Virus record (IMG/VR): IMGVR_UViG_3300025889_000559 | Coordinates: 1-31,856 of that record | Strand: one strand, 5' to 3' | From: a virus | Length of the DNA stretch: 31,856 nucleotides | Shown here: positions 380 through 31,371 of the stretch, one piece after another | Position numbering within the stretch: position 1 is the stretch's first letter | How the letters are laid out: every line of letters begins with the position of its first letter | The notes under the pieces: model-generated | Databases searched by the model: none | Told to the model about the DNA's origin: nothing | Seen by the model: the letters and a program-made list of their open reading frames with translations, nothing else | Position numbers and translations under genes: made by a program

Positions 380-2191
380 TTATTTAGTTTTAGGATAAGC
401 ACCTCCGTTTGGCATATCAGCAGGTCTAATACCTACTTCTGCTGGATTAACAGGCTCTACAAAACCTTCAGACTTAGCCTTAGAAGCATCTACTTCGGAC
501 CCAGCTTGTACTTTAAGTCTATATACCTTTCTCTCCCATAAGTGCTTGCAGTTCTTGCCACCTTTGAATTTTAATAGTGAATAGTTGCGTTTCTGATGAC
601 CAAGCTCTGCATTCACCCCGTTGAAAGACATCATATCAATGTCCTCTTTACGGAACACAATGTTTCTCTCAGTAAGAGCCTCCATCTTCTGACAGAACAA
701 TCTACTTCCAGGACTCTTTCTCATCGGAGAATAAGCATAACGCACCTTAAATCCGTTATTGTCTTGCTTAGAGTTCTTCTCTGGAGACGCATCACGCTCT
801 GACACCTCTTTTAAGGCTATTTTAAGCTCTTCTAACGAACTTTCTGTTCCATCTAATACTTGGCTATCAACAAGCTCCCATTCATCGCTTACAACCTCTC
901 CTAAATCAAAAAGAGTATTATATAGTTCTTCACCTTCTTCATCAGAGAAGTCATCCATCTCACAAGACTCTAAGTCAGAAGATAATTTAGCCTTCTCACC
1001 AGTCTCTTCTTCTTTGCGGACTTTAGTCTCGATGTTGTCAAGTTCCGTAAACTCGATAGGTTGTAGAGTAACAAAGTATAGGTTTAAGTAGATACCATTA
1101 AAGTTTAGTATCTCGTTAAAGCCATCAATAAGGTCTCTTTGGAAAGGTCTGATTACTACGTTATCCATAATAACAGAGGCAGTCCTAAGCTCTTCGGCGT
1201 TGTTACCAAAGCCTGTATTGTCTTTAATACCCATAAGGATAGGAGACACAATTCTGTGACCCATCATAATCTTTTCTCTTGCCTCAGTAGATAAGAACTG
1301 ATATTGTGCGTGTGCATCTGGCAAGTGAATAGGTTGTAAGTCAGCTTGAGCATCAGCAGATTCGTTGAAAGTAAGAATAAACTTACCTGCATTAGAAGAC
1401 CCACTGAATTTATCATATATCTTGCGCTCTATAATTTCTTGAGTCTCCTCTGGTGGAACACCATTGTTGAAGTTAATCAAAAGAGAAGGCTGAAGACCAT
1501 TCTTTATATTGTTGATATGGTAGTTAGAAACTTCCTCTTCTAAGTTACAATACTGAAGACATCCGTTGTAGTCAACAGGAGCATAGTAATAGAAGCCAGA
1601 TTTATAAGGTTTGATAACAAACATCTCAATAGTCTCTGTCTTACTGCCATTGCCAAAAGAAGGTATTCTCTTAGGTTTATCTTGTGGTTTAATATCACAC
1701 CACTTAGGATGGTAATACCAAGCCTTAATCTTGCCCTCAGACGCTTTCTCTGCTCTCAATGTTTCCATTGGGAAGTGTAGCACCTGTAAGATTTGTGTCT
1801 TTTGTTTGTTATATACAACTTGAATAGCTGCTTGACCAAGCATCTTGTAGTCATTTACAATACGCTTTACATCTTTAGCTTTAAAGAGAAGTTTAAATTT
1901 GGCATACATCTCTGGCTTGATGTCGCTATCTGTAGCCTCAAGACCTCTACCATAAATCATTTCTGAAATACCATTTATACACCCAGCATTAGTTGGGCTG
2001 CCCAAATAACGCTCAATAAGCATATCAAAGTAATCGTTGTACTCTCCGTACTCAACCCAGTCTCTGTTATATACCTCTTTAACTTCTGGAGAGGCATATC
2101 CAGACAGATTCACAACCTTTACAGAACTCTTGTATTCTGCTTTAGGCTGAGGCTGGGCTTGCATCGTTACTCTTCCTATTTTCTTAGTCAT
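380..2191 (-). CDS. Phage portal protein
   Basis: 603 residues, the dodecameric ring at the packaging vertex through which DNA enters and leaves the capsid. Residues about 50-400 have the portal pattern: a helical entry region (DMLIERYLGSPTNAGCINGI), the wing with the GQAAIQVVYN strand, and the stem/crown region with MMGHRIVSPILMGIKDNTG, typical of portal proteins in Bacteroidetes phages. The protein is longer than the usual 400-550 residues. The last ~110 residues follow an acidic linker and carry a Cys-His-Trp motif (KGGKNCKHLWERKVYR), reminiscent of the C-terminal part of some minor head proteins, so a portal plus minor-head extension is possible. It is placed late in the operon, after capsid and tail tube genes, rather than next to terL. 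Confidence 0.85.
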   Translation of the reverse strand: MTKKIGRVTMQAQPQPKAEYKSSVKVVNLSGYASPEVKEVYNRDWVEYGEYNDYFDMLIERYLGSPTNAGCINGISEMIYGRGLEATDSDIKPEMYAKFKLLFKAKDVKRIVNDYKMLGQAAIQVVYNKQKTQILQVLHFPMETLRAEKASEGKIKAWYYHPKWCDIKPQDKPKRIPSFGNGSKTETIEMFVIKPYKSGFYYYAPVDYNGCLQYCNLEEEVSNYHINNIKNGLQPSLLINFNNGVPPEETQEIIERKIYDKFSGSSNAGKFILTFNESADAQADLQPIHLPDAHAQYQFLSTEAREKIMMGHRIVSPILMGIKDNTGFGNNAEELRTASVIMDNVVIRPFQRDLIDGFNEILNFNGIYLNLYFVTLQPIEFTELDNIETKVRKEEETGEKAKLSSDLESCEMDDFSDEEGEELYNTLFDLGEVVSDEWELVDSQVLDGTESSLEELKIALKEVSERDASPEKNSKQDNNGFKVRYAYSPMRKSPGSRLFCQKMEALTERNIVFRKEDIDMMSFNGVNAELGHQKRNYSLLKFKGGKNCKHLWERKVYRLKVQAGSEVDASKAKSEGFVEPVNPAEVGIRPADMPNGGAYPKTK

Positions 2192-28761: not shown

Positions 28762-29187
28762 TTACCAAAGATAAAAACCATATTCCTTTAAGTCATCAAC
28801 ATCGAAATACACAACTTCTCTGTTTACCGCAATTCTCGCAACACCAAATAATATCAGTTGCTGAATTAGGTTAAATCTCCTTTTATGTCCAACACAACGA
28901 AGCCTAACTGCCTTTCCAGCCCTATGTGAATCGTTGCTGACTAACTTTATTTTATCGGCATAAACCTTAGAAACATATCCGAGGTCAACCTTTATAACCA
29001 TTCTGTTCCTGGCACATATCTCATCAAGCAATACGACAAGCTCTCTATCCATAAACCTAAATCCACTTCCAGGAGTGTCTGGACTATCAAACATATCCCA
29101 AGTCAAAACCTTTAACCCAAAGGTATTGTTGTCTTGCTCTTTCTCAGCAATCTTATCGACAAGGTTTTTGTTTTCTTCCATTATCAT
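28762..29187 (-). CDS. Degenerate peptidase M15-like protein
   Basis: 141 residues. The segment FRFMDRELVVLLDEICARNR, then SNDSHRAGKAVRLRCVG and FGVARIAVNREVVYFDVDD follows the order of the hedgehog/DD-peptidase (M15) fold. In active M15 enzymes the metal ligands are H and D in SxHxxGxAxD and a later HxD. Here H88 is kept, but the Asp is R95 and the second His position reads D129-V-D131. It is therefore probably not an active peptidase, and may be a structural or peptidoglycan-binding relative. The true lysis enzyme seems to be the GH24 lysozyme nearby. Confidence 0.5.
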   Translation of the reverse strand: MIMEENKNLVDKIAEKEQDNNTFGLKVLTWDMFDSPDTPGSGFRFMDRELVVLLDEICARNRMVIKVDLGYVSKVYADKIKLVSNDSHRAGKAVRLRCVGHKRRFNLIQQLILFGVARIAVNREVVYFDVDDLKEYGFYLW

Positions 29188-29456
29188 TGCTTGTCTTGTG
29201 TTCTAAGCATTAGGCTACCTTGTCTTTCATCAATAGACTTTATAGCCCTGTATATAACTCTTGTCTTTCTCTTGACATCGTCAATCTCACCTTTCTTAGA
29301 GTCAGAGCCAAGATTAGCATACATATTAGCGTTTAACTCAAGAAGAGAATCTATCTTTTGTACATCTGAATAAGGCTTGTGTGATAACACTCTAAATACA
29401 AAATCCTCTAATTCTTCTTTGCTTGGTGTCTTCGCTGGAATATCTATGTCTTTCAT
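29184..29456 (-). CDS. Small helical protein, 90 aa, unknown
   Basis: MKDIDIPAKTPSKEELEDFV, then helices VLSHKPYSDVQKIDSLLELN and TRVIYRAIKSIDERQGSLML, ending RTQDKQ. The last block is familiar from Bacteroidetes phage genes beside M15-like proteins, without known function. Overlaps the M15-like gene by 4 bp. Confidence 0.55.
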   Translation of the reverse strand: MKDIDIPAKTPSKEELEDFVFRVLSHKPYSDVQKIDSLLELNANMYANLGSDSKKGEIDDVKRKTRVIYRAIKSIDERQGSLMLRTQDKQ

Positions 29457-29506: not shown

Positions 29507-29536
29507 TTGCACATAAACTTTTTTCACATATATTTG
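29507..29536 (+). promoter_or_regulatory. Consensus Bacteroidetes promoter on plus strand
   Basis: TTG at 29507-29509, 19 bp spacer, TATATTTG at 29529-29536, the best match to TTTG-N17-21-TAnnTTTG in the window. It faces away from every gene; transcription would start near 29542. Confidence 0.65.
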
Positions 29537-29541
29537 CAGAG

Positions 29542-29797
29542 ATGATTTAAGCGTCTGAAAACACGATTCGGTCATCAGCTTATAAATGTGGTAGAATGGG
29601 AAGCAGACATACCACAACTTCAACCTAAAGCAAACGAAGGTCTGTACTCAGTAGGATGAGTGGAATTGCAAGTCTTAGAACCTACATTACTAAGACGTCC
29701 TAATGCTCTCAAGAACTCAACTGAAGCAATTAATGGACAGGGTGGCTTAGGGCTACCTATGTCCATACGCAACTCAGAATCTAACAAAAGCAATTAG
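29542..29797 (+). ncRNA. Candidate structured non-coding RNA, opposite to all genes
   Basis: Gene-free 250 bp right after a consensus promoter. Perfect stems seen: TGTGGTA 29587-29593 with TACCACA 29610-29616; GTCTTAG 29672-29678 with CTAAGAC 29690-29696; AATTGC 29664-29669 with GCAATT 29726-29731 enclosing the former; ATGGACA 29733-29739 with TGTCCAT 29760-29766, containing GGTGGC/GCTACC 29741-29757. The last inner stem has a G-U pair only on the plus strand. GATGA/TCATC (29541/29572) closes the 5' end. No clear terminator before 29798, so it may read on antisense to the spanin and lysozyme genes. Not a tRNA or tmRNA; no family recognised. Confidence 0.55.
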
Positions 29798-30271
29798 CTA
29801 AATAGAGATATAACTTTTAATAATCTTCTTAGCAAGCAAAATAAAAATAACTAAAAAGACAAGAGGCAATAAGTAAGCGTAGTTAGTCCTCTTTACTTCT
29901 TTATCTAAAGACTTCTCTTCTTTAATAGACTCTTCAGACTTATTCTCTTGTACCTCCGTAGAAGCATTTACAGACGATTTAAGAGACTCTTTCTTTTTTC
30001 TGATAGTTACAGACTTTGCATTAGAGAAAGTTCTTGTAACACCACCTAAAGTTACTTCAATAGGCTTTAGAGAGTCTTTTGCTATGACTTCTATCTCAAA
30101 GGTGTCTATGTTTAAGAGAGTAGAGTCTTGGGTAGTATGTTTAATGATTGTATTAGTCTCTGTCTTTAAAGACTCTTTAGACTCTGTCTTTGCTACTTGT
30201 TTTTTAACTGAACAAGATGTAAACGATAAACTACTAATCAATAGTATCGCCGAAGTAATAATTAGCCTCAT
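29798..30271 (-). CDS. Putative unimolecular spanin (u-spanin)
   Basis: 157 residues. N-terminal lipoprotein signal MRLIITSAILLISSLSFTSC with Cys20 as the likely lipidated residue, a long Ser/Lys/Glu-rich periplasmic region (about 21-130), and a C-terminal transmembrane helix (YAYLLPLVFLVIFILLAKK, 131-149) with a basic end. A lipid anchor for the outer membrane plus an inner-membrane anchor in one protein is the definition of a unimolecular spanin (T1 gp11 type), which fuses the two membranes at lysis. Overlaps the lysozyme gene by 38 bp, as spanin genes often do. Confidence 0.7.
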   Translation of the reverse strand: MRLIITSAILLISSLSFTSCSVKKQVAKTESKESLKTETNTIIKHTTQDSTLLNIDTFEIEVIAKDSLKPIEVTLGGVTRTFSNAKSVTIRKKKESLKSSVNASTEVQENKSEESIKEEKSLDKEVKRTNYAYLLPLVFLVIFILLAKKIIKSYISI

Positions 30272-30692
30272 CTATTCTTCTATTCGTTAAACCTCTTAGT
30301 ACTTTGCCTCCTGCTTTGTTCCATTTCATAAACTCTTTCAATATAGATGGGTCACAAGGATTAGCGTTTACCTTTTTAAGTAATGTAGACTTCTTTAAAG
30401 CACCACATCCTAAGTTATATGAGAAAGATACTAAAGCATCAAACTGCTCCTGAGAAATGTCAGCAATTACGTTGTCATTAACACACTTCTCAAACTTAGA
30501 CACTACTACTTTTAAAAGCAAGTCAGCCACCTCCTTAGAGAGGGGCTTGTCTTGCATTGTTACCTTAGTGCCATCAGGATAAAAAGTATTACCATACCCT
30601 ATTGTCGGGATTCTCACAGCGTCCAAATATGGAGTGCTACTAAACCCCTCGTGCTTCTTTATTAATTCAAGACCCCTTTTTGAAGTTTTCAT
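30234..30692 (-). CDS. Endolysin, GH24 lysozyme
   Basis: 152 residues. Catalytic triad in the order E-x8-D-x5-T: E15 (KKHEGF), D24 (YLDAV) and T30 (IPTIGYGN), as in T4 and P21-type lysozymes. Then DISQEQFDALVSFSYNLGCG and the C-terminal KWNKAGGKVLRGLTNRR. No signal or SAR segment at the N-terminus, so a holin must release it. The gene overlaps the homing endonuclease gene by 26 bp and the spanin by 38 bp. It cleaves the glycan strands of peptidoglycan. Confidence 0.92.
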   Translation of the reverse strand: MKTSKRGLELIKKHEGFSSTPYLDAVRIPTIGYGNTFYPDGTKVTMQDKPLSKEVADLLLKVVVSKFEKCVNDNVIADISQEQFDALVSFSYNLGCGALKKSTLLKKVNANPCDPSILKEFMKWNKAGGKVLRGLTNRRIDEANYYFGDTID

Positions 30693-31371
30693 TTATAACT
30701 GTGTATATTGCGTTTCTGGACACGTTTAACTTTTTGCTTATGCTCAATATTGATTCCTTATTTTTATGCCCATCTATAATTATAGAAAGTTCTAATTCTG
30801 TAAACTTCTTTTTGTTTCGAGATGAATGTGTTTTATAATATTCTTTTAAAGAGTCTGAAAGCTTGTTTTTCTGCTCTTGAGTGAATTTCACACCTTTTCT
30901 TGAGCTAACCATACCTTTGTTTCCTATGAGACCAAGTCTGTTTAATTCTTTAGACTGGATTCTTTTTAATTCTCTAAGCTCTTCGCTTTTCCAAGTTTCT
31001 TTTAGTGTGGCTATTCTTTTTGCTTTTGTTTCTTCTGACTGAGTCTTGCCTCTTAATGACTTTGATATTTTTTCTTTAGTATCTACAGAGAAGTTGTTGT
31101 TGCCATCACCTCCATCTGTCATATTGCATAATATTCCAGTTCCGATGTCGTTTCTTCCGTATAGCTTTATGAACTCAATTTCCTTTTCTTTAGCCTGCTC
31201 ATAAGTCAAGTCATCAAATAATATCTCGACCTCATAGTCGGTCTTTGAAACTATGTTTTTCCAGTGAGAATTCCTGCTTCTCTTTTCATAGGCTCTCTTC
31301 ACAGAAGAACCTATGCCGATATAAAAAGGCTTGTCTGTGTCTTTCCTTATGTGCCTATAAACAATGGCCAT
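30667..31371 (-). CDS. GIY-YIG homing endonuclease with NUMOD3 modules
   Basis: 234 residues. The GIY-YIG nuclease domain occupies 1-90: VYRH at 4-7 in place of GIY, FYIGIG at 16-21, an Arg-rich helix, and the metal-binding Glu in KEKEIEFIKLYGR around 62-73. NUMOD3-type modules follow (KEKISKSLRGKTQSEETKAK at 99-118; FTQEQKNKLSDSLKEYYKTH at 163-182), then a C-terminal HTH (ILSISKKLNVSRNAIYTVIN, 208-227). It sits between holin and lysozyme, overlapping both, a free-standing homing gene. It would cut phage genomes lacking it. Confidence 0.85.
   Translation of the reverse strand: MAIVYRHIRKDTDKPFYIGIGSSVKRAYEKRSRNSHWKNIVSKTDYEVEILFDDLTYEQAKEKEIEFIKLYGRNDIGTGILCNMTDGGDGNNNFSVDTKEKISKSLRGKTQSEETKAKRIATLKETWKSEELRELKRIQSKELNRLGLIGNKGMVSSRKGVKFTQEQKNKLSDSLKEYYKTHSSRNKKKFTELELSIIIDGHKNKESILSISKKLNVSRNAIYTVINENFKKGS

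Follow-up and report, generated by a model that had tools for sequence, protein, structure and literature searches.

The locus and its genes

The stretch of DNA analysed here (the window) is a viral record of 31,856 bases. The virus is apparently a tailed phage infecting Bacteroidetes, as judged from its terminase, which is 51% identical to those of Nonlabens phages P12024L and P12024S. An earlier note on this DNA had placed the protein genes on the minus strand, which is correct. Approximately 340 bases without a supported gene separate a spanin-like gene (29798–30271) from a 90-amino acid gene (29184–29456). The note had described a gene-free gap following a rightward promoter, and indeed no coding frame is supported in 29546–29797. 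One plus-strand frame in this interval is open save for a TGA common to 4/4 close copies, with extra stops in contigs L022 and L023, and no protein match was found; a plus-strand protein reading is rejected on these grounds. Elsewhere in the window (30667–31371, minus strand), between the lysozyme gene and a 72-amino acid gene, there is a probable homing endonuclease gene (phrog_314, E = 3.6e-18; its NUMOD3 match is below cut-off) that is missing from L002.

A predicted promoter and structured RNA

The gap contains a 268 bp plus-strand module (29529–29796) that starts at a −7 box and ends at GCAAT. Its features, including a structured RNA and the nine-base direct repeat X, are listed in Table 1.

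Table 1. Features of the RNA locus in window coordinates.
Feature	Position	Strand	Sequence	Support or remarks
Promoter	29507–29536	+	TTG (29507–29509) and Bacteroidetes-type −7 box TATATTTG (29529–29536)	−7-like box at matching place in relatives
Structured RNA	29541–29796	+		Ends near 29541 (5') and 29796 (3'), placed from conservation
P1	29541–29576	+	GATGA (29541–29545)/TCATC (29572–29576), enclosing GTC..CAC..GATTCGG	Compensatory replacement in relatives
P2 hairpin	29587–29616	+	TGTGGTA/TACCACA, conserved loop GAATGGGAAGC	Both sides changed in 5/5 counted pairs
Pseudoknot	29604–29644	+	CAGAC (29604–29608)/GTCTG (29640–29644)	Covariation in 3/5 pairs
P3	29619–29671	+	TTCAA (29619–29623)/TTG.CAA (29666–29671, one-base bulge)	Weakest helix
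P3.1 hairpin	29646–29661	+	ACTCA/TGAGT, then GGAAT	Both sides changed in 2/5 pairs
P4 hairpin	29672–29696	+	GTCTTAG/CTAAGAC	Both sides changed in 6/7 pairs
X, copy 1	29724–29732	+	AAGCAATTA	Identical copy 64 nt downstream
P5 hairpin	29733–29766	+	Conserved AGGGCTACCTAT	Outer pairs, by inspection only
X, copy 2	29788–29796	+	AAGCAATTA	At 3' conservation boundary

The earlier note had singled out several stems. Its two 7 bp stems (29587/29610 and 29672/29690) correspond to P2 and P4 and are real, both being backed by covariation. The hairpin at 29733–29766, here P5, is also real, albeit with homologue support for the outer pairs only and by inspection (GGAC/GTCC, GGAT/ATCC and GGGTA/TACCC in relatives). 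The 6 bp stem proposed to enclose P4 (29664/29726) exists as sequence but is without homologue support. Comparison of the folding energy with shuffled sequences, a check suggested at the time, gave only a modest advantage (z = −2.11, with 5/200 shuffles as good); the minus strand gives z = −1.68. No intrinsic terminator was seen at the RNA 3' end.

The promoter claimed previously, TTG-N19-TATATTTG, is present on the plus strand. It had been ranked as the best in the window, but it is not unique, since the pattern TTG-N17..21-TAnnTTTG occurs five times on each strand, and the ranking alone is weak. The promoter pattern and the modest fold would be weak evidence if taken alone, and it is conservation together with covariation that lifts the observation above chance.

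Copies and covariation

The window-type RNA is carried by 16 IMG/VR contigs, the window included, and by one Flavobacteriaceae genome (L158). Three contigs reached through relatives of the spanin gene (L019, L022 and L023) carry the 268 bp module at 96–99% identity, and a final pattern scan of IMG/VR gave 12 more window-type copies. In every comparison made the module is better conserved than the genome around it: 99% versus 93% for the backbone between the window and L019, 97% versus 92% between L022 and L023, and 96% between the window element and those of L022 and L023, where the flanks are near 72%. Both flanking genes are present in L003 and L006–L009, from which the module is missing. 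We note that L003 (3438–3614) has a near-repeat, GATGGAAGACT, also found at the same spot in L006–L009, and that these empty-site relatives have a TATGTTTG box pointing in the direction of the RNA promoter of L022 and L023. A second RNA at this site was considered and rejected, as folding is no better than that of shuffles.

L158 is a full-length homologue with 63% identity, and its stems are different yet complementary. Its P1 is CTTT/AAAG, and ATCTTG/CAAGAT is another P1 pairing seen among relatives; its pseudoknot is GGUAAC/GUUACC, its P4 is CUUGGAG/CUCCAAG, and a different stem is possible in place of P3. A window-type family is borne out by covariance model R2, which finds the core P1–P4 fold and recovers L158, lying outside the model, at E = 7e-9; the window element, itself a model member, matches at E = 8.5e-40. 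The RNA of L158 is followed by a small gene (674–976, minus strand) that by inspection resembles a terminase small subunit, its PHROGs matches being only to families of unknown function.

Two genome samples of ∼360–400 each, searched with strict filters, yielded no window-type copies beyond L158. A 17-mer genome scan returned 64 matches that were judged to be chance; seven inspected by eye seemingly represent one protein-coding gene, probably nadC, and the remainder were judged by short BLAST extension only. The short matches L159–L163 were likewise treated as chance on inspection.

Among 11 aligned copies (window included) 99.1% of cells are paired and both sides have changed in 18 of 32 pairs, with a covariation score of 0.625; shuffled controls score 0.192±0.024 and slid ones no higher than 0.130. 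The covarying elements are P1, P2, P3.1, P4 and the pseudoknot, although two of the five P1 pairs are countable in the window clade only, owing to alignment gaps. P3 has 94.5% of its cells paired and no pairs with change on both sides. The fit is better on the plus strand (335/338 cells) than on the minus strand (325/338). Compensatory changes, for which the earlier note had proposed looking in homologues, are thus found.

Orientation relative to the lysis genes

Eleven window-type relatives carry the RNA at this same border of the lysis genes, on the strand of the neighbouring lysis-region gene. The RNA is opposed to the genes in just four contigs, the window and its closest relatives L019, L022 and L023; for L178 no marker gene turned up in the strand test. 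These orientations bear on the proposal that the RNA is an antisense regulator of lysis, whose plus-strand transcript would enter the spanin and lysozyme genes and repress both. In the four opposed contigs the RNA does face the lysis genes, with no terminator visible in between. However, an RNA that is co-directional in 11 contigs cannot be antisense to the lysis-region gene there, so that the antisense orientation is not conserved, and it is the fold that is under selection and not complementarity to the lysis genes. The −7-like box (TATATTTG, TATGTTTG or TATATTG) was looked for in 14 copies, and all but L158 have it 16–18 nt upstream of a TTTAWGCGTC core, in both orientations. Promoter and RNA thus travel together, which also argues against antisense lysis control. 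We regard such a regulator as very unlikely, and as a conserved role it is not supported.

Comparison with catalogued RNAs

The earlier note had recognised no known RNA family, and in agreement with this an Rfam model search of the window gave no matches; no description of the window RNA was found in the literature searched. Specifically, the Rfam models of HEARO/OMEGA RNA, group I introns and ROOL/GOLLD do not match. A group I intron is further excluded by the antisense position relative to the flanking genes, from which it could not be spliced. ROOL and GOLLD occur in phages and are large structured RNAs too, but the window RNA is shorter and has no Rfam match to either. These ornate RNAs are of unknown function (PMC12286853). 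In HEARO, the OMEGA RNA of IscB, a structured RNA precedes an HNH gene, an arrangement present here in single copies; unlike that system, the window-type nuclease is small and optional and there is no Rfam match. With covarying relatives in other phages and no match to a catalogued family, the window-type RNA looks both real and new.

A sister RNA in Pseudomonas phages

In L023 an HNH gene follows the module directly on the same strand, starting at the RNA 3' boundary; in L022 it is missing via an indel at that point. The sole homologue of the L023 HNH protein in the phage collection is gp98 of Pseudomonas phage phiPsa397 (38% identity), which sits behind a noncoding region holding a second RNA of like layout. 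When this noncoding region plus the HNH gene was used as the query, 175 phage records matched, and in just two did the match cover most of the query. The sister RNA has been conserved across about 175 records of phages, almost all of them phages of Pseudomonas (phiPsa397, PAK_P1, PAK_P4, KIL3), and we found neither a published name nor an Rfam match for it. A pattern scan yielded 42 stretches, and in 29 sequences both sides have changed in 24/26 pairs, with a covariation score of 0.681 versus 0.198 for shuffled and at most 0.144 for slid controls. The virulent phage PAK_P3 also encodes ncRNAs, sRNA1 and sRNA2 (PMC4933390), but PAK_P3 contains no match to R1, the Pseudomonas-type covariance model.

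The two types agree in how their motifs and stems are ordered and spaced. Both have a P1 enclosing GTC..CAC..CG, a P2 loop resembling GAA..GGAAGC, a P2–P3 pseudoknot, a hairpin followed by GGAA, X duplicated around the last hairpin and, in one copy of each, a homologous HNH gene downstream; the Pseudomonas type differs in its longer 3' half. Cross-detection by covariance models R2 and R1 fails both ways, and the match of the window to R1 (E = 0.068 in 501 bases, with P1 misaligned) is not significant. A structural descriptor was composed with the window already in view; across 1.46 Mb of background, counting both strands, it hit nothing but the element and its copies, and it hit 0/20,000 shuffles. 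The window clade fits it in full and all window-type copies tested fit its P1 part, the corresponding numbers for Pseudomonas-type copies being 19/50 and 48/50. Common descent of the two types is likely.

PAK_P4 has a putative promoter directly upstream of its sister-RNA copy, which is not listed in the RNA-Seq-based ncRNA annotation of that phage, although another small RNA is. Three Pseudomonas-type phage contigs (L120/L125, L111/L147 and L124/L144) have two RNA copies each, ∼33–36 kb apart. Weak R1 matches were seen in one Bacteroidota and one Pseudomonadota genome (L156 and L157; E = 5e-5 and 8e-4).

The repeat X, neighbouring genes and the probable role of the RNA

X flanks the last hairpin on both sides. 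Many relatives keep this layout although their X sequence is another one, X varying between copies while matching within each. The spacing is 64–66 in the window type and 75–109 in most others. Compared with shuffles, the repeat is significant (p≤0.025) in 18/34 elements tested, several A+T-rich ones being not significant. No internal partner for X was found at a consistent position.

Some RNA copies are followed by nuclease genes, which belong to several families, and most copies have none. One could suppose that RNA and endonuclease form a single mobile ribonucleoprotein in which the RNA guides the HNH nuclease: the L023 gene begins at the RNA 3' boundary, the closest homologue from an isolate likewise has a similar RNA in front of it, and X is present twice. 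We find this very doubtful given that the nuclease is missing from most copies and belongs to different families in different copies, and that the HNH protein of L023 is small and has no IscB or Cas9 family match. A variety of nuclease families is what would be expected of hitchhikers exploiting a conserved site, and we infer that these genes are such hitchhikers and not required partners.

In many relatives the RNA is just upstream of a gene, an arrangement that counts against its being a gene of its own and would also suit a cis-acting leader, in which X copy 2, close to the start codon, would act as a switch. Co-directional copies are directly upstream of small genes, and in L177 X copy 2 is a few bases ahead of an ATG. 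A leader is nevertheless unlikely, because the downstream genes vary among copies, the window, L019 and L022 have no gene of their own after the RNA, and X lacks the consistently placed internal partner. A packaging-related RNA similar to the phi29 pRNA is more improbable still; the sister RNA is followed by genes for terminase small subunits in contigs L129 and L143, but the RNA of the window and of its relatives adjoins the lysis genes, ∼9 kb from the terminase genes.

The original observation holds. In our view the locus is probably an autonomous plus-strand gene that has a sigma-type promoter of its own and encodes a structured RNA of ∼255 nt, a member of a phage RNA family not yet catalogued. 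Points that count against this view are the modest folding z-score, the lack of a visible intrinsic terminator, the omission of the sister copy from the PAK_P4 ncRNA annotation and the composing of the descriptor with the window in view. Of the earlier reading, there is good support for a structured RNA that is read from the plus strand and has a promoter to itself, and action in trans is the best interpretation; regulation of lysis by antisense is the part that finds no support. The module would be transcribed from its own −7 box promoter, and the RNA would probably act in trans through RNA–protein or RNA–RNA contacts, with the duplicated X as a candidate recognition site.

A long shot is that the RNA is one half of an undescribed RNA-directed system, in which the internal X would specify a match to the X at the 3' boundary and optional HNH-type nucleases would use the RNA; if so, one ancient RNA would be shared by phages whose hosts belong to two bacterial phyla. 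That X differs between copies yet matches inside each demands explanation. Many phages keep this folded RNA, which has a pseudoknot and covarying stems and is missing from Rfam, and few functions are known for such phage-encoded structured RNAs. Isolated Pseudomonas phages have an RNA of the same layout, making its function testable in laboratory strains.
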